The notes under the pieces: model-generated
What the model was told of the DNA's origin: nothing
Databases searched by the model: none
What the model saw: the letters and a program-made list of their open reading frames with translations, nothing else
Source of the DNA: Clostridia bacterium
GTDB lineage: Bacteria; Bacillota_A; Clostridia; Lachnospirales; Lachnospiraceae
Reading direction: 5' to 3'
DNA: 13,369 bases
Assembly: GCA_012515365.1 (NCBI GenBank)
Contig: JAAYYM010000553.1
Span: 1-13,369, forward strand
Program-made: the position numbers and the translations under genes
Part shown: piece after piece, positions 1 to 5,878 of the stretch
Position numbering within the stretch: the first letter of the stretch is position 1
How the letters are laid out: the number at the start of each line of letters is the position of its first letter

Positions 1-823
1 GAAGTACTTTACATGCAGTTGCCGTCGATACACCTGACTGATCGTATCCCGGAGACAGCTCTACGATATCCATGCCTACAATGTTTAATGCAGACATATC
101 CAGAATTCCTTTGAGCAGATCAAGGAAAGAAATTCCTCCTGCCTCAGGAGTACCGGTTCCCGGAAATACAGATGGATCCAAAACATCCAGATCAATCGTA
201 AGATATACAGGATATCCCTGACATTCCTTAATCGCATCCTCTAATCCACTCAGATTAAATTTCTGTAGCTTTGTATGTTGTTTTGCCCATTCAAATTCTT
301 CTTTTTCACCACTTCGTATTCCAAACTGGTAGATACGTCCATCACCTGTAATATCCCAGATTCTGCGTAATACTGTGGCATGTGACAAAGCTTCTCCCAG
401 ATATTCCTCACGCAAGTCTGTATGCGCATCAAAATGGATCACGCGTATGTCATGAAATTTCTCATATACAGCCCTAAATGCACCTAATGTCACAAGATGT
501 TCGCCACCTATCATACACGGACGTTTTCCGGCTGCAACAATTGTTCTGGTTGCTTCTTCGATCTGCTCCAAGGCTCTTTTTGCATTTCCGAAAGGAAGTT
601 CAATATCACCTCCGTCAAAGATCCGATACTCTGTCAGATCGCGATCCTGATACGGACTATAGGTTTCTAGTCCATAGGATTCACCACGCATAACATGACT
701 GGCGAATCTTGTTCCTGGTCGAAAGGAAGTCGTTGAATCAAAAGGTGCTCCAAACACAACTGTTGTTGCTTCCTCCCAATCTGACTCACAGCCTAAAAAG
801 GTCTCTACATTGCTATTCCACAT
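1..823 (-). CDS. speB: Agmatinase SpeB (3' end beyond window)
   Basis: Hydrolyses agmatine to putrescine and urea in the cytoplasm, the second step of the arginine route to polyamines. The reading frame opens with MWNSNVETFLG and stays open for 274 codons to the window edge. Ureohydrolase (arginase/agmatinase) family, with the binuclear Mn-binding motifs present: GGEH at residues 106-109, FDAHTD at 131-136 (D132, H134, D136) and DLDVLDP at 211-217 (D211, D213). The PEAGG family motif is at 226-230. Agmatinases usually have about 285-310 residues, so only a short C-terminus should be missing. The start overlaps the speE stop by 11 nt in another frame (agATGtggaaTAG), and GGAGGAG lies 10 nt upstream inside speE, which suggests translational coupling. 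Agmatinase rather than arginase is favoured because an arginine-type decarboxylase and an aminopropyltransferase lie directly upstream. It is the last gene seen in the spe operon. Confidence 0.95.
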   Translation of the reverse strand, partial: MWNSNVETFLGCESDWEEATTVVFGAPFDSTTSFRPGTRFASHVMRGESYGLETYSPYQDRDLTEYRIFDGGDIELPFGNAKRALEQIEEATRTIVAAGKRPCMIGGEHLVTLGAFRAVYEKFHDIRVIHFDAHTDLREEYLGEALSHATVLRRIWDITGDGRIYQFGIRSGEKEEFEWAKQHTKLQKFNLSGLEDAIKECQGYPVYLTIDLDVLDPSVFPGTGTPEAGGISFLDLLKGILDMSALNIVGMDIVELSPGYDQSGVSTATACKVL

Positions 824-1664
824 CTCTTAATAACTCCTCCACATAATTAGGCAAAGCAAAAGCTCCTACATGTAATCTTGTATTATAATACTGTGTTTTA
901 AGCCCAAGCGTATTCCATCTGACAGGATCAAAATCCTTGGTAGGATGGTATTTCTTTGAAGAAAAACCAAAAAGCCAGTGACCTGAAGGGTAGGTTGGAA
1001 TATGTGCCTGATATACTTTACTGATTGAGAAACTCTCTACAATTCTTTTATGTGCTCTTTGCATTGCAAGCGCATCTTCTTTATAAAATGGACTTTCATG
1101 CTGATTGACGATAATGCCATCATCCTTAAGCGCTTTAAAACAATTACCATAAAATTCCTTTGTAAACAAGCCCTCTCCCGGTCCAAACGGATCAGTCGAG
1201 TCAACAATGATCAAATCATATTCCTGATTACAATGGCGGATAAACTTAAGTCCATCCTGATATGTAATGGTAACTCGTTTATCAGTCAAACCACAGGCTG
1301 TCTTTGGCAGATATTTTTTACATACCTCGACTACCAGCTCATCTATTTCTACCATATCGATATGTTCAATGGTCTCATAGCGCGTCAGCTCACGGACCAC
1401 TCCTCCATCACCTGCTCCTATTACCAAAACATTCTTTACTGATGGATGGACTGCCATAGGCACATGTACCATCATTTCATGATAAATAAATTCATCCCGC
1501 TCTGTTAACATCATATATCCGTCCAAAGTCAAAAACCTTCCAAATTCCTTTGAATCAAATATGTCTATCCGCTGATAATCACTTTGTCCGGAATAAATCT
1601 GTTTATCAACCTTAATTGAAAAACTTGCTTCCTTAGTGTGTTGTTCCGTAAACCATAATTCCAT
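813..1664 (-). CDS. speE: Spermidine synthase SpeE
   Basis: Polyamine aminopropyltransferase: transfers the aminopropyl group of decarboxylated SAM to putrescine, giving spermidine and methylthioadenosine. 283 residues, the usual bacterial length. The N-terminal beta domain (about 1-70) contains the substrate-gate stretch YQRIDIFDSKEFGRFLTLDG. The Rossmann fold follows, with the dcSAM-binding motif VLVIGAGDGGVVREL at 79-93 and the acidic MVEID at 104-108. The catalytic-loop signature VDSTDPFGPGEGLFTKEFY starts at 154, with D155 and D158 as the expected putrescine-binding/catalytic acids. The start is supported by AAGGGGTG 6 nt upstream. It sits 24 nt after speA and overlaps speB by 11 nt, so it is an internal operon gene. 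Enzymes of this family can accept other diamines (cadaverine, agmatine); putrescine is inferred from the agmatinase next door. Confidence 0.97.
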   Translation of the reverse strand: MELWFTEQHTKEASFSIKVDKQIYSGQSDYQRIDIFDSKEFGRFLTLDGYMMLTERDEFIYHEMMVHVPMAVHPSVKNVLVIGAGDGGVVRELTRYETIEHIDMVEIDELVVEVCKKYLPKTACGLTDKRVTITYQDGLKFIRHCNQEYDLIIVDSTDPFGPGEGLFTKEFYGNCFKALKDDGIIVNQHESPFYKEDALAMQRAHKRIVESFSISKVYQAHIPTYPSGHWLFGFSSKKYHPTKDFDPVRWNTLGLKTQYYNTRLHVGAFALPNYVEELLRDVE

Positions 1665-1688: not shown

Positions 1689-3134
1689 TCATTTAATCAC
1701 ATTAATATGTTCGATTTTCATATCTTCCGGTCCTGTCATAAAACAGCCCTTTTCCTTTGCATAGCAGATATAATTGATAATATCTGGTGTGATATATTCG
1801 CCTGGTGCCAGAATCGGAATACCAGGAGGATAACACATCACAAACTCTGCACTGATCCTGCCGACACTTTTGTTAATCGGCAATGTCTCTTTGTCTGCAT
1901 AAAATGCCATCTGCGGAGTCGCCGCTACCTGCGGATTGATATATTCATGATCAAACATTCCTGATGTATTTTTCTTAAATCTGCGTCTGATCTCTGATAA
2001 TGCACTTACCAAACGTTCAATATCTTGTATTCTGTCACCTACAGAAAGATAAGCAAGTATGTTTCCAATGTCACCAAATTCTATCTGAATGTCATATTCG
2101 TCCCTTAACAAATCATATACTTCTATTCCGGCAAGTCCTGTCTCAAATGTATTGACAGAAAGCTTCGTCACATCAAAATCAAAAACAGACTCTCCATCGA
2201 TTAATTCCTTACAGTAAGCATAATAATCACCAATCTGGTTAATTTCTGAACGAGCATATTTTGCCAGTTTTCTTACTTTTTCAAAGATTTCTTCTCCGTT
2301 AAGTGCCAGATTGCAGCGGGAAATATCAAGACTGGACAACAATAGATAACTTCCACTTGTCGTCTGGGTCAGATTGATGATCTGACGTACATAATCCGCA
2401 TTCATCTGGGGGCCTGCCAATAAAAATGAACTCTGTGTCAGACTTCCGCCTGATTTATGCATGCTGACCGCTGCCATATCAGCACCTGCCTCCATCGCTG
2501 ATATTGGAAGCTTCTTATCAAAGTAAAAATGTGTCCCATGAGCTTCATCAGCCAGAAGTTTCATACCATGCTGATGTGCAAGTTCTGTTATTCTCTTAAT
2601 ATCCGAACAAATCCCGTAATAAGTCGGGTTATTAATTAAAATCGCCTTGGCATCCGGGTTTTTCTGAATTGCCTCTTCTATTTCTTTTACTGTTACGCCT
2701 AAAGAAATGCCCAGCCTTTGGTTTACAGCTGGATTTACATATACAGGAACAGCTCCACTGAGTACCAGTGCATTAATTGCACTCCTATGTACATTTCTCG
2801 GCATGATGATTTTATCTCCACTCTTGCAGACAGATAAAATCATAGATTGTACAGATCCAGTCGTTCCACTTACGATAAAAAAGGCATTTGCAGCACCAAA
2901 TGCATCCGCCGCAAGTGCCTCTGCCTCTCTGATTACAGAAACCGGATGGCATAGATTATCTAATGGTTTCATAGAATTAACATCTACGCTCATACATTTT
3001 TCACCGAGGAAATCAGTTAATTTCGGATTTCCTTTCCCACGTTTATGTCCCGGTACGTCAAATGGTACGACACGTTCTTTTCTGAATTTCTTTAATGCAC
3101 GGTAAATCGGCATTTGTGTCTGATCTAGCTCCAT
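1689..3134 (-). CDS. speA: Arginine decarboxylase, fold-type I PLP enzyme (SpeA, Bacillus type)
   Basis: Probably decarboxylates arginine to agmatine, the entry to the polyamine route encoded here. 481 residues, matching the short Gram-positive Orn/Lys/Arg decarboxylases of the aspartate-aminotransferase fold, which lack the N-terminal wing domain of the E. coli inducible enzymes. Visible motifs: FDVPGHKRG at 25-33 (the PGHKxG signature of the family), FFIVSGTTGSVQSMI at 85-99 (phosphate-binding loop), the DEAHG motif at 196-200, and SMHKSGG at 224-230 with K227 as the expected PLP Schiff-base lysine. Start: GGAGGAA lies 4-5 nt upstream of the ATG. It is 23 nt downstream of speD and 24 nt upstream of speE. 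Sequence alone does not separate arginine from lysine or ornithine specificity in this family. Arginine is inferred because agmatinase is encoded in the same operon. Confidence 0.9.
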   Translation of the reverse strand: MELDQTQMPIYRALKKFRKERVVPFDVPGHKRGKGNPKLTDFLGEKCMSVDVNSMKPLDNLCHPVSVIREAEALAADAFGAANAFFIVSGTTGSVQSMILSVCKSGDKIIMPRNVHRSAINALVLSGAVPVYVNPAVNQRLGISLGVTVKEIEEAIQKNPDAKAILINNPTYYGICSDIKRITELAHQHGMKLLADEAHGTHFYFDKKLPISAMEAGADMAAVSMHKSGGSLTQSSFLLAGPQMNADYVRQIINLTQTTSGSYLLLSSLDISRCNLALNGEEIFEKVRKLAKYARSEINQIGDYYAYCKELIDGESVFDFDVTKLSVNTFETGLAGIEVYDLLRDEYDIQIEFGDIGNILAYLSVGDRIQDIERLVSALSEIRRRFKKNTSGMFDHEYINPQVAATPQMAFYADKETLPINKSVGRISAEFVMCYPPGIPILAPGEYITPDIINYICYAKEKGCFMTGPEDMKIEHINVIK

Positions 3135-3157: not shown

Positions 3158-3952
3158 CTAAAAGATATTACTTCCGCTAAATATTTCTATCATTTCCTGA
3201 CGCAGACTGTTCGTAATAGAGAGCCGGGTCTTTGGTGTGATTTCATATACATCTGTTTTAAACAGATAATTTTGGAGATCAATCTCCTTAATCAGCATCT
3301 TTGTATGAAAGATATTTGACTGATACATGTTTACATCGATTGCATCGTATTTTTGTAATGTATCTGTCGCAATGTAATCCTGTATTGAGGTCATATGATG
3401 ATCCATGAAGAGCTTCTTTCCATCAATATCTCTTGTAAAACCACGTACCTTATAGTCCATCGTAATGATATCGGAATCAAAGCTGCCGATCAGATAATCC
3501 AGTGTTGATAGCGGGGTGATCTCACCACAAGTGGCAACATCAATATCTACGCGAAAGGTAGCAATAGATGTCTCCGGATGATATTCCGGATAGGTATGTA
3601 CAGTCACATGACTTTTATCCAGATGAGCCATCGTCAAATCATTGTGATTCATAATCTCTTCTGTCAATCCGCCGATGCGGGATTCATAAGTCTGTTCCTC
3701 TGCCAAAAGAATGGTAGCGCTTGCCCCCTGTGGCTCATAATCCTGTTTGGATACACTTAATACATGTGCTCCGATCATCTCAGATACCTTGCACAGGATA
3801 TTAACCAGACGTTCCGAACTATACTCTTCATCAATATATGCTATGTAATCCTTTTGCTCTCGCTGTGTTTTTGCATAACAAACATCATATATGTTAAAGC
3901 TCAGGGATTTTGTTAAATTATTAAATCCATATAATTTCATTTTTGTCGACAT
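3158..3952 (-). CDS. speD: S-adenosylmethionine decarboxylase proenzyme SpeD (class 1A, E. coli type)
   Basis: Makes decarboxylated SAM, the aminopropyl donor for SpeE. It is a pyruvoyl enzyme that cuts itself into a beta and an alpha chain. With the chosen start MSTKMKLYGFNNLTKSLSF the product has 264 residues, the same length as E. coli SpeD as I recall it, and resembles it along its length. The cleavage site is in LDKSHVTVHTYPE: K113/S114, where Ser114 would become the pyruvoyl group. H119 and C142 (in the STCG stretch) match the expected processing/catalytic His and Cys. The frame can be extended to a GTG at 4015, but that codon lies inside the terminator hairpin and has no ribosome site. 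The ATG at 3952 has GGGAG 8 nt upstream, so the shorter form is preferred. It is the first gene of speD-speA-speE-speB, behind a long structured leader. The well-known Bacillus SpeD is the much shorter class 1B type, so this long form is notable in a Firmicute. Confidence 0.96.
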   Translation of the reverse strand: MSTKMKLYGFNNLTKSLSFNIYDVCYAKTQREQKDYIAYIDEEYSSERLVNILCKVSEMIGAHVLSVSKQDYEPQGASATILLAEEQTYESRIGGLTEEIMNHNDLTMAHLDKSHVTVHTYPEYHPETSIATFRVDIDVATCGEITPLSTLDYLIGSFDSDIITMDYKVRGFTRDIDGKKLFMDHHMTSIQDYIATDTLQKYDAIDVNMYQSNIFHTKMLIKEIDLQNYLFKTDVYEITPKTRLSITNSLRQEMIEIFSGSNIF

Positions 3953-4275
3953 CTGATCATCTCCCGTTCTCTTCGTGTTTTCTATTAGATGAAAAAAAGA
4001 TTCAAGTGTATACACCTACGTACCGCTACACTTGAATCTTACTAATTGTTTTATTTATTCGGAGAATCTCCGTATTTTATCCAATATAGTGTTTGAGAGT
4101 CTATATAGCAAGAATTTACTTTTAATACTCTTATTGATTTTCACAAGTGTGATGTGCTATTGCACACGGTTGTATAGTCACCAACTTATAAAATTTGAGC
4201 TCTTCACTCTATCAATAGGGCAATTAGATTGCCTATGTACATAAAATTCCCGCAAAATCTCTAACACTTTTGCTA
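3953..4275 (-). promoter_or_regulatory. Long structured 5' leader of the spe operon, candidate attenuator or riboswitch
   Basis: Non-coding stretch of about 320 nt from the predicted start of transcription to speD. Hairpins visible, in transcript order: GCAAAA/TTTTGC (4268-4273 with 4252-4257); a strong GGCAAT/ATTGCC stem extended by ATA/TAT (4215-4236); TGTGC/GCACA with a 4-nt loop (4153-4166); ATATAG/CTATAT (4084-4089 with 4101-4106); CGGAG/CTCCG (4060-4072); then the terminator. Segment 4150-4136 reads ACACTTGTGAAAATC and resembles the terminator 3' arm. It could pair with the 5' arm through ACACTTG:CAAGTGT and AATC:GATT. GTGTG (4167-4163) could in turn pair with CACAC (4151-4147) and hide that segment. 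I do not recognise a named riboswitch class. Confidence 0.55.
3992..4040 (-). terminator. Intrinsic terminator in the speD leader (candidate attenuator)
   Basis: On the minus strand, arms AAGATTCAAGTGTA (4040-4027) and TACACTTGAATCTT (4010-3997) form a perfect 14-bp stem around a 16-nt loop. A run of seven T (3998-3992), two of them within the stem, follows. This is a textbook Rho-independent terminator pointing toward speD. It ends about 39 nt before the speD start codon and so lies between the promoter at 4282-4311 and the gene. It could also stop readthrough from galK-galT, but it is about 340 nt past the galT stop, with a good promoter in between. Regulated attenuation is the more interesting reading. 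Confidence 0.85.
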
Positions 4276-4281
4276 ACGATA

Positions 4282-4311
4282 ATTATATCTTAACTGATAC
4301 CGTTAAGTCAA
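4282..4311 (-). promoter_or_regulatory. Promoter of the spe operon with an internal inverted repeat
   Basis: The minus strand has -35 TTGACT (4311-4306), an 18-bp spacer and -10 TATAAT (4287-4282), a good vegetative sigma-factor promoter predicting transcription from about 4275. The spacer region holds a perfect inverted repeat CTTAAC-N7-GTTAAG (4289-4307), which partly overlaps the -35 box. It is placed like a repressor operator; the cognate protein is not evident in the window. The remaining bases between the galT stop and the promoter contain only a short direct repeat (separate entry). Confidence 0.7.
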
Positions 4312-4323
4312 TCTTTTTTTTAC

Positions 4324-4363
4324 TGCTGCTTCATTCCTTTTTTTTCTTGCTGCCTCATTCCTT
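4324..4363. repeat. Two 16-bp direct repeats just after galT
   Basis: TGCTGCTTCATTCCTT (4324-4339) and TGCTGCCTCATTCCTT (4348-4363) differ by one base and recur with a 24-bp period, separated by a T-rich spacer. On the minus strand the period keeps the reading frame and spells GMRQQEKK then GMKQQ before a TAA at 4322-4320. This frame is -1 relative to the galT stop, so it may be a relic or an alternative C-terminus of galT (see findings). Confidence 0.6.
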
Positions 4364-4381
4364 CCACTTCATCCGGACAGA

Positions 4382-5878
4382 TCAGTTTAATGCTTCTATA
4401 AATCGTCTAAAGTAGGTTCTTCCCTCTTTCGTACACTTAAATACACCCGCATCCTCAAGCACTTTTGTAAACACGATGCCTGTTTCTTTTTTTAGGATAC
4501 CCATTATGTTGTCTTGATTAACCGATGGATAAGATACAAGGATTTCATCTACCCATTCTTTATGCTTATTGACTTTTTCATTCTGGGTAATATCCTTACC
4601 TTCTATGATATATTCTGCCAATAGCTGCAGCTCTTCACTTAATCTGGAAGGCAGTATAGCCAGACCCATGACCTCAATCGCCCCGATATTTTCTTTTTTG
4701 ATATGATGATATTCCGGGCGCGGATGGTAAACACCAAGTGGGCGCTCAGGTGTTGTAATGTTGTTACGTAATGCAAGATCCAGCTCATACACACCGTTTT
4801 TGATGCGTGCTGCCGGTGTAATCGTATTATGGCGGGTTTCATTTGTATGAGAGAAAATAAAAGCTTCTTCATCTGTATACCCAATCCATGTATCCAGTAT
4901 TTTTGCGGCTGCATCTACAAGACGTTTTTCATCTTTTGAGCTGATACGGATAACAGATAACGGCCAATGCAGAATTCCGGCATCAACATCTTCAAAGCCT
5001 TTGATGGTAAAGTGCTCCTCTATGGCAGCTCTCGACATGGCAAATTCAAAATTGCCTCCCTGAAAATGCTCATGGCTTAAAATAGATCCTCCAACAATAG
5101 GCAGATCTGCATTTGTTGCGATCACATAATGTGGAAACTGACGTACAAAATCAAACAGTTTCTCAAAAACCGATTTGTCAATCACCATCGGCACATGCTT
5201 TTGATTTAAAACAATACAATGTTCATTGTAATATACATAAGGAGAATATTGGAATCCCCATGGTTCTCCACAAATTTCGATGGGAATGATTCTATGATTC
5301 TCTCGCGCAGGATGATCCAGACGTCCGGCATATCCTTCATTCTCCATACATAGTAAGCATTTTGGATATCCAGATGGTTTTGCTTTTCCTGCAAGAGCGA
5401 TTACTTTTGGATCTTTTTCCGGTTTTGACAGGTTGATGGTAATGTCGATCTGTCCATAATCGCTGTCTACCTGCCATTTGATATCCTTTTCAATGCGATA
5501 TCTGCGTATATAATCAGAATCCTGTGACAATTTATAATAGTAATCGGTTGCCTCTTTTGGATTCTTATGATATCTTTCCCTGAATTGGCGAATCACCTCA
5601 CTAGGTCTTTGAACCAAACAGTTCATCACTTTTGTATCAAACAAATCTCTATGAACAACGGAATTATCCTCTATCAGTCCATTTTCATATGCATAATCAC
5701 ATATTCCAGATAGAATCTGCTCTAAGCTTTTAGTTTCGTTCGGATTTGTCTCAGCTTTGTAATCACTTAGATGCAACAGATCTAATATCAGATTCGTTGT
5801 ATATATCTGATCTTCCTTTTGGATCAATTCACAGTCAAGTCCATATTGTACCAGTGCCGCTATATCCTGATCTATCAT
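4382..5878 (-). CDS. galT: Galactose-1-phosphate uridylyltransferase GalT, class 2 (Firmicutes type)
   Basis: Leloir enzyme exchanging UMP between UDP-glucose and galactose-1-phosphate, giving glucose-1-phosphate and UDP-galactose; cytoplasmic. About 498 residues, the long class-2 form of Gram-positive bacteria rather than the roughly 350-residue E. coli type. Landmarks, numbered from the preferred start: the Cys pair in YPKCLLCMENEGYAGR (about 172-187), ATNADLPIVGGSIL (about 254-267) and the class-2 active-site stretch SHEHFQGG (268-275). The frame also contains an ATG two codons earlier, at 5884, but GGAGG touches that codon directly. The ATG at 5878 has the same GGAGG 6 nt upstream and is the better start (MIDQDIAALVQYG). 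It follows galK by less than 20 nt and shares its transcript. No terminator is seen directly after the stop. Confidence 0.95.
   Translation of the reverse strand: MIDQDIAALVQYGLDCELIQKEDQIYTTNLILDLLHLSDYKAETNPNETKSLEQILSGICDYAYENGLIEDNSVVHRDLFDTKVMNCLVQRPSEVIRQFRERYHKNPKEATDYYYKLSQDSDYIRRYRIEKDIKWQVDSDYGQIDITINLSKPEKDPKVIALAGKAKPSGYPKCLLCMENEGYAGRLDHPARENHRIIPIEICGEPWGFQYSPYVYYNEHCIVLNQKHVPMVIDKSVFEKLFDFVRQFPHYVIATNADLPIVGGSILSHEHFQGGNFEFAMSRAAIEEHFTIKGFEDVDAGILHWPLSVIRISSKDEKRLVDAAAKILDTWIGYTDEEAFIFSHTNETRHNTITPAARIKNGVYELDLALRNNITTPERPLGVYHPRPEYHHIKKENIGAIEVMGLAILPSRLSEELQLLAEYIIEGKDITQNEKVNKHKEWVDEILVSYPSVNQDNIMGILKKETGIVFTKVLEDAGVFKCTKEGRTYFRRFIEALN

Follow-up and report, generated by a model that had tools for sequence, protein, structure and literature searches.

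A candidate class of riboswitch-type leader RNAs upstream of bacterial polyamine genes

Introduction

The existence of polyamine riboswitches has been a matter of dispute, and the class described in 2023 is made up of rare SAM-I variants; in the passages of that report available here, the spermidine riboswitch is described as an OFF switch that acts by transcription termination and precedes speB, speD, speE and ldcC, and its authors anticipate that more polyamine classes exist (Salvail et al. 2023, PMC10853860). Excerpts of other papers place the speF and odc1 motifs in alphaproteobacteria, and the ABC-leader of potABCD in Haemophilus and Pasteurella (PMC11477304, PMC8632094, PMC2965389). In the pneumococcus, the region between SP0915 and SP0916 gives rise to a transcript reaching ~320 nt, which appears under the names SN20, F59, srn235, Spd_sr49 and M7 (PMC2887815, PMC3395615, PMC12323649): in the portions of these papers available, SN20 (318 nt) was guessed to be FMN-switch-like from a short shared motif (PMC2887815), F59 (82 nt) was listed as an sRNA (PMC3395615), and M7 (327 nt by its coordinates) was found in 385 of 385 strains (PMC12323649, 2025).

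Here, the leader of a speD operon in a 13,369-nt stretch of bacterial DNA (the window) was compared with related loci. The comparison suggests that this leader is probably one of a widespread class of riboswitch-type attenuators of transcription, acting in cis, that would exert feedback control on polyamine synthesis and uptake.

Materials and methods

Eighty speD loci were fetched from genome contigs; loci are numbered with the prefix L. The covariance model R1 was built from speD leaders only, with 23 invariant columns over the 43 leaders chosen for the model. Alignment A1 comprises 43 of the 55 leader segments listed, the window's being one of the 55, and alignment A2 (MAFFT) comprises 56 of the 75 segments listed, short and odd variants having been left out of the latter. 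Nineteen loci (L081-L096, L111, L126 and L129) were set aside as repeats. The 112 loci used for counting were obtained from 122 places by removing 8 duplicates (leaving 114), then L028 (113), a false positive with no R1 match in its genome, and then L113 (112); these counts are without L005, L027, L038, L045, L048, L066 and L076, which were removed by a motif filter though their core is present by nhmmer.

P1 was assessed by comparing own with permuted duplexes, because alignment A2 pairs only 75% of P1 cells and its 5' strand is poorly aligned; 69 of the 112 loci entered this comparison. The putative antiterminator was assessed in the same manner, using a 31-nt segment ending at TCAATA (the P7 3' strand plus ACTTGTGAAACGGT) against the terminator 5' arm, in 104 loci (112 minus 7 terminator-less leaders, minus L039, in which speD is 823 nt away).

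Results

The speD leader in the window

The best match of the SpeD encoded in the window (85%) lies in a Lachnoclostridium MAG, and the window looks to be a piece of a Lachnospiraceae-type genome. Its minus strand carries, in order, speD, a decarboxylase gene, speE and speB, with galT- and galK-type genes upstream and sugar-transport genes more distant; the decarboxylase gene is presumed to lie in one operon with speD. The leader is located between galT and speD, with a terminator ahead of the speD ribosome site (Table 1).

Table 1. Features of the speD leader and its operon in the window, in the order of the minus strand
Feature	Positions	Strand	Remarks
Sigma-70-type promoter, TTGACT-N18-TATAAT	4282..4311	-	11/12 consensus matches
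Transcribed leader: aptamer-like domain and expression platform	3990..4276	-	transcription start inferred from promoter
P1 5' strand GCGGGAATTT	4244..4253	-	pairs with 4117-4108; 8/8 ungapped pairs in window
10-nt spacer, site of RF02440 subdomain in many relatives	4234..4243	-	subdomain absent here
P3 hairpin GGCAATCTAATTGCC	4219..4233	-	double-sided changes at 6/6 pairs; 74% of cells paired
P4 5' strand TATTGAT	4211..4217	-	pairs with ATCAATA 4138-4132, nearly invariant
P5 hairpin GAG...CTC	4197..4209	-	
P8 5' strand TTTTATAAG	4185..4193	-	pairs with CTTGTGAAA 4147-4139; predicted to sequester antiterminator strand
P6 hairpin region	4169..4185	-	
P7 hairpin GTGTGCAATAGCACAT	4152..4167	-	3' strand joins antiterminator in many relatives
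Putative antiterminator strand ACACTTGTGAAAATC	4136..4150	-	contains nearly invariant ACTTGTGAAA
P4 3' strand ATCAATA	4132..4138	-	3-nt overlap with antiterminator strand
Proposed pseudoknot 5' strand AGAGT	4127..4131	-	pairs with ACTCT 4100-4096 across P1
P1 3' strand AAATTCTTGC	4108..4117	-	
Conserved TATATAGACTCT, including pseudoknot 3' strand ACTCT (4100-4096)	4096..4107	-	
Terminator 5' arm AAGATTCAAGTGTA	4027..4040	-	alternative partner of 4150-4136
Terminator 3' arm TACACTTGAATCTT (4010-3997) and T run (3998-3992)	3991..4010	-	-18.6 kcal/mol
speD, adenosylmethionine decarboxylase	3158..3952	-	TIGR03331, 399.9 bits, cut-off 255.8
PLP-dependent Orn/Lys/Arg-type decarboxylase	1689..3134	-	PF01276; same strand as speD
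speE, spermidine synthase	813..1664	-	
speB, agmatinase	2..823	-	cut by window end

An earlier, sequence-only reading of this DNA had proposed a promoter, a structured leader of about 280 nt, and a perfect 14-bp terminator with a T run just before the speD ribosome site, and every element was recovered at the position it gave. The promoter hexamers (-35 TTGACT, 4311-4306; -10 TATAAT, 4287-4282) stand on the minus strand with the match recorded in Table 1; since a scan of the window returned 6 promoter-like sites against 5.0 +/- 2.6 in shuffles, it is the quality of the match and its location that support the promoter call. With a folding energy of -73.7 kcal/mol, the 292-nt leader beats all 200 of its shuffles (-53.1 +/- 4.4 kcal/mol; z -4.7). 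The terminator arms (4040-4027 and 4010-3997) form 14 of 14 pairs around a 16-nt loop; they were not listed by an initial scan limited to loops of 3-8. Between core and terminator, the window also has a small hairpin, CGGAGATTCTCCG (4060-4072), which was not seen in the relatives printed.

Alternative pairing of the terminator 5' arm

The same reading had proposed attenuation by mutually exclusive pairings, in which a segment of the leader imitates the terminator 3' arm. This segment, ACACTTGTGAAAATC at 4150-4136, does pair with the terminator 5' arm in the window, by 7+4 pairs around a 4-nt bulge, which are the 11 pairs proposed. In the window alone, the pairing of segment and arm was equalled by 0.46% of 5000 arm shuffles, the wider 31-nt segment gave no significant result (22% of 2000 shuffles), and the two states possible before the 3' arm is made are close in energy (-57.4 vs -54.5 kcal/mol).

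The weight of the case for the putative antiterminator is comparative. Across the 104 loci, own duplexes gave -16.65 kcal/mol vs -12.81 kcal/mol for permuted ones (z -15, 0 of 5000 permutations reaching the own value) and -9.74 kcal/mol with shuffled arms; the covariation persisted after correction for base composition (z -12.9, 0/5000) and after thinning to 50 representatives (z -9.1, 0/5000). A terminator-like hairpin with T run was found between core and gene in 105 of the 112 leaders at a limit of -7 kcal/mol, a count in which some hairpins may be spurious (that of L002 is a later hairpin than TCAAGTGT seen by eye), and the same hairpin scan found none in the other 7. With a coarser scan (even hairpin lengths, limit -10 kcal/mol, last 150 nt), which is less sensitive than the first, hairpins were found in 61 of 111 real leaders vs 10 of 111 shuffled ones. 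On the strength of these pairings, the two alternative states, which had been proposed from one sequence, are a property of the family, and the proposal of attenuation holds.

In the speD leaders of L029, L051, L053, L054, L064 and L078, the 3' half has diverged and a terminator was not found; translation control is possible in these leaders.

Attenuation coupled to the ribosome through a leader peptide was also considered. In 15 of the 112 leaders, a start codon has a Shine-Dalgarno-like site and opens a frame of 8 codons or more, and 104 of 112 hold some ATG frame of at least 8 codons if the ribosome site is disregarded; however, the 15 frames differ in position and length, with no common place in the leader, and 97 of 112 leaders have none, so that a leader-peptide attenuator was rejected as exceedingly improbable.

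The helix that would hold the antiterminator strand in the terminating state was described less accurately by the sequence-only reading, which had GTGTG pairing with CACAC so as to occlude that strand. Both motifs are present in the window (4167-4163 and 4151-4147), and the pairing recurs in those printed leaders that share its P7, but it is not general among the leaders printed, and the energy model of the window prefers the hairpin TGTGC/GCACA over it. As a general feature it was therefore dropped: the TTTTATAAG/CTTGTGAAA pairing (P8) is commoner, though not universal, and P8 and P4 are more general competitors of the antiterminator. The P8 5' strand was found by motif in 91 of 112 loci; given its absence from the other 21 in this motif search, some of which also lack P6/P7, the lock on the antiterminator may differ among subgroups.

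Architecture of the conserved domain

The window carries the conserved core ACTTGTGAAA..TCAATAAGAGT..TATATAGACTCT of the proposed class of polyamine-gene leaders, in the placement typical of it, with a terminator separating the RNA from a polyamine gene directly downstream. The conserved domain consists of P1, P3-P8 and a probable pseudoknot, and is followed by the terminator, whose 5' arm complements, with covariation, the segment around ACTTGTGAAA(CGGT). P1 links a strand upstream of the RF02440 subdomain to a strand inside the core. Over 69 loci, its own duplexes gave -10.1 vs -7.7 kcal/mol for permuted ones (z -7.6, 0/5000; composition-corrected z -6.7, 0/5000), the signal being weaker in 24 dissimilar representatives (z -2.6, 25/5000), and at two of its pairs both partners have changed, in 22 and 19 of 56 sequences. 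Double-sided changes were found at 4 of 4 pairs of P2a (86% of cells paired) and at 4 of 5 pairs of P7 (66% of cells paired). On its P6/P7 side, P8 has five pairs in which all 8 changed cells keep pairing (seven A-U to G-U, one U-G to U-A), and the outer three P8 pairs include two non-standard cells. The AGAGT/ACTCT pseudoknot is paired in 99% of cells, and its strands are nearly invariant; P4, P8 and the pseudoknot vary so little that they are plausible but scarcely tested by covariation.

For the 47-pair model as a whole, the covariation score over 56 sequences was 0.207 vs 0.120 +/- 0.005 for shuffled and at most 0.091 for slid pairings. Two of the five covariation measures were weak: pairs with double-sided change numbered 20 vs 16.0 in shuffles (reached by 10 of 500, with a slide by -1 giving 22), and pair types 55 vs 52.9 (reached by 128 of 500), a weak separation from controls.

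P6, P7 and the P8 5' strand are naturally deleted in L003, L004, L010, L011, L020, L025, L031, L034 and L110, all of which keep AGAGT/ACTCT and ACTTGTG (altered in L003, L004 and L031). In the potA leaders of L149, L150, L151, L152, L153, L156 and L158, a short variant was seen in which AGAGT is followed almost directly by an ACTCT-like strand (AAGAGTACGCGTATCAAACTCT in L149) and the usual P1 3' strand is missing; among the loci printed, this variant stands only before potA.

The comparative data support an RNA structure and a switch without naming what reads the signal, and would fit the same attenuator with an RNA-binding protein as the sensor of polyamines or another signal, the conserved domain then being the protein site. 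This element is larger than protein-leader hairpins usually are, with an almost invariant core and a probable pseudoknot, and a protein sensor appears quite unlikely.

Distribution and downstream genes

By blastn and nhmmer, 64 of the 80 related loci, in addition to the window, have the core in the 600 nt preceding speD; 6 of these 64 matches are weak (short variant, E 1e-4 to 5e-4). At the other 16 loci, nhmmer did not find the core within 600 nt upstream. L039 was counted among these 16, its RNA lying further upstream: two identical copies, ~390 bp apart, stand at L039:1657-2220, 0.8 kb upstream of speD with another frame between, and reflect a tandem duplication or an assembly effect.

R1 was searched for in 391 genomes from the class that includes Clostridium methylpentosum (G011) and matched 49 places in 48 of them, the search giving no copy in the other 343. 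The nearest polyamine gene, sought with six query proteins, begins at most 419 nt downstream at all 49 places: speD at 17, potA at 15 (two of which precede one gene), an Orn/Lys/Arg-type decarboxylase gene at 15 and a carboxynorspermidine-synthase-like gene at 2. An intervening ATG frame of at least 50 codons was found at 2 of the 49 places (50 and 53 codons). Together with the core at 64 of 80 speD loci, this placement supports control of the polyamine operon by the leader. All three PotA proteins tried pass TIGR01187 and two pass the equivalog NF043075; in L149, PotB-, PotC- and PotD-type models are the best or nearly the best matches of the genes after potA, with scores under the models' cut-offs. 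On NF043000, for which the cut-off is 800, the synthase-like protein reached 412 and 396 bits; it carries saccharopine-dehydrogenase domains.

In L160, two R1 places lie ~190 nt apart before one potA (E 4e-8 and 9e-4), reflecting either a tandem copy or two partial matches to a single RNA.

R1 was positive in 15 of 18 genomes of known loci; in the order of G117, a copy of the RNA is present in 1 of 10 genomes. R1 matched 8 places in 395 genomes from the class that contains L066 ([Clostridium] spiroforme). Six of them lie before polyamine genes (speD, decarboxylase and synthase-like, two each), and the other 2 (E 1.2e-4 and 4.6e-4) before genes for a C39-like and an M28 peptidase. RF02440 matched 4 places in these genomes, two before speD, one being the M28 case (64.8 bits) and one being L171, whose core is degenerate and whose 3-kb locus contains no query gene. 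The marginal L167 stands before the C39-like peptidase gene, followed by a MATE-type gene, the marginal L168 before the M28 peptidase gene, and the degenerate L171 before a putative lipoprotein gene (by eye). Perhaps these three represent a variant with another role, and the RNA or its variants may have been recruited to other genes in this class.

The ligand

The sequence-only reading had listed spermidine, putrescine, SAM and decarboxylated SAM (dcSAM) as possible effectors. Sensing of SAM or dcSAM would suit speD, which uses SAM, and the published spermidine riboswitch is, in the available passages of its report, a SAM-I variant (PMC10853860), but the same RNA stands before potA and before the SAM-independent carboxynorspermidine-synthase-like gene, and no Rfam SAM family, RF00162 included, matches the window at gathering score or positions 3900-4400 even at E 10. 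SAM and dcSAM were accordingly dropped from the list as very unlikely. A separate SAM riboswitch was seen in L012 (1450-1552, RF00162, 85 bits), ~1.3 kb upstream of a speD leader core near 2822.

The genes covered serve SAM-dependent synthesis (speD), SAM-independent synthesis (synthase-like), diamine supply (decarboxylase) and import (pot), and spermidine is the product common to both routes. What these four gene types share is a polyamine, which argues against SAM and dcSAM and makes a polyamine, most simply spermidine, the favoured part of the list: from gene associations, the ligand is likely to be a polyamine, and spermidine in particular is a fairly probable choice. Sensing of putrescine, agmatine, arginine or the Mg2+/polycation load in place of spermidine would agree with the naming of PotA-type importers for both spermidine and putrescine, and with agmatine or putrescine as the likely product of the decarboxylase step; yet putrescine repressing its own consumers, speD and the synthase-like gene, would be odd feedback logic, and these other signals are considered unlikely.

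Relation to Rfam RF02440 and the pneumococcal sRNA

The statement of the sequence-only reading that no described riboswitch class was recognisable holds in that no class matched; among the T-box and other Rfam cis-regulators, no covariance model matched the window, and among 14 loci only RF02440 matched in the leader regions. The RNA is nevertheless not entirely new, as Rfam lists a 54-nt subdomain, absent from the window, as RF02440 (SpF59_sRNA). At the gathering score of 37.2, this model matches the P2 subdomain of the leader in 11 of the 14 loci, and not the window, L001, L002 or L009; since the window is without the subdomain, Rfam is silent for it. A GGACAGC-type subdomain motif lies on the 5' side of the leader in 81 of 112 loci. 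In 398 genomes of the phylum, RF02440 matched 18 places, all 18 before polyamine genes (speD 7, decarboxylase 4, synthase-like 7), and among 14 control genomes it matched in Lactococcus lactis. Rfam thus holds a fragment of a much larger RNA, and the pneumococcal transcript is presumably identical with the core of this RNA.

Rfam types the family as 'Gene; sRNA', and three papers, in the parts available, count the pneumococcal transcript with this name among the sRNAs (PMC2887815, PMC3395615, PMC12323649), as would be expected if the RNA, listed in the pneumococcus as SpF59/srn235/M7, acted mainly in trans, with its position before polyamine genes incidental. Against this, the genes directly downstream are of four unrelated types yet belong to one pathway, and the terminator is complementary to the RNA itself; moreover, a prematurely terminated leader would look like an sRNA and would yield a transcript of this kind. 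A mainly trans-acting role is judged highly improbable, and a cis-acting attenuator is the reading retained.

Discussion

The pairings described above suggest the following switch. When polyamine, most likely spermidine, is sufficient, the RNA would fold into a compact domain, through putative direct binding of the polyamine, with ACTTGTGAAA locked in P8/P4; the terminator 5' arm would then be free, the terminator would form, and transcription would stop before speD (OFF). When polyamine is scarce, ACACTTG..AATC would pair with the 5' arm, no terminator would form, and speD, the decarboxylase gene, speE and speB would be transcribed. The sign follows from the position of the antiterminator strand inside the folded domain, which suggests that the folded domain is the OFF state.

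If this is correct, a type of RNA present in 48 of 391 genomes of one bacterial class, where its operons are those of pot, speD, decarboxylase and carboxynorspermidine-synthase-like genes, would reveal how polyamines are balanced in many bacteria, and an item listed as an sRNA would become a defined switch. The natural deletions (the RF02440 part, and P6/P7/P8) would be useful for defining a minimal switch.

In the literature as far as it is full-text searchable (few subscription journals, bioRxiv not included), no account of the class as a polyamine switch was found. The main text of a pneumococcal Term-seq study (PMC6296669) has 0 occurrences of polyamine, spermidine and SP_0916, and PMC6212727 has 0 occurrences of riboswitch, F59, ldcC, polyamine and spermidine.

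Compared with known systems, RF02440 shares the P2 subdomain, and its name, 'Streptococcus sRNA SpF59 (ldcC RNA)', ties it to a decarboxylase gene, but it covers one subdomain, misses the conserved core, P1, pseudoknot and terminator, and is filed as 'Gene; sRNA'. The pneumococcal SN20/F59/srn235/Spd_sr49/M7 is linked to the leaders through RF02440, which bears its name, but has been treated as an sRNA. The speF, odc1 and potE motifs and the potABCD ABC-leader are likewise candidate leaders before polyamine genes; they are set apart here by their descriptions, the potE passage naming no group. The spermidine-responsive SAM-I variants resemble the window leader in being OFF switches that act by termination before polyamine genes, whereas the window leader has another conserved core and no SAM-family match, a distinction drawn with family models and not with the variant sequences. 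The best reading is that this RNA represents an undescribed riboswitch-type class without a match to the SAM-I family. From comparative sequence data, and taken as one joint proposal, it seems somewhat more probable than not that these leaders form a second type of spermidine-sensing riboswitch, unrelated to the SAM-I variants and more widespread than they are, whose core is pseudoknotted and whose RF02440 subdomain is optional; that it controls import as well as both spermidine routes; and that pneumococcal F59/srn235 is the terminated leader of one of its members.
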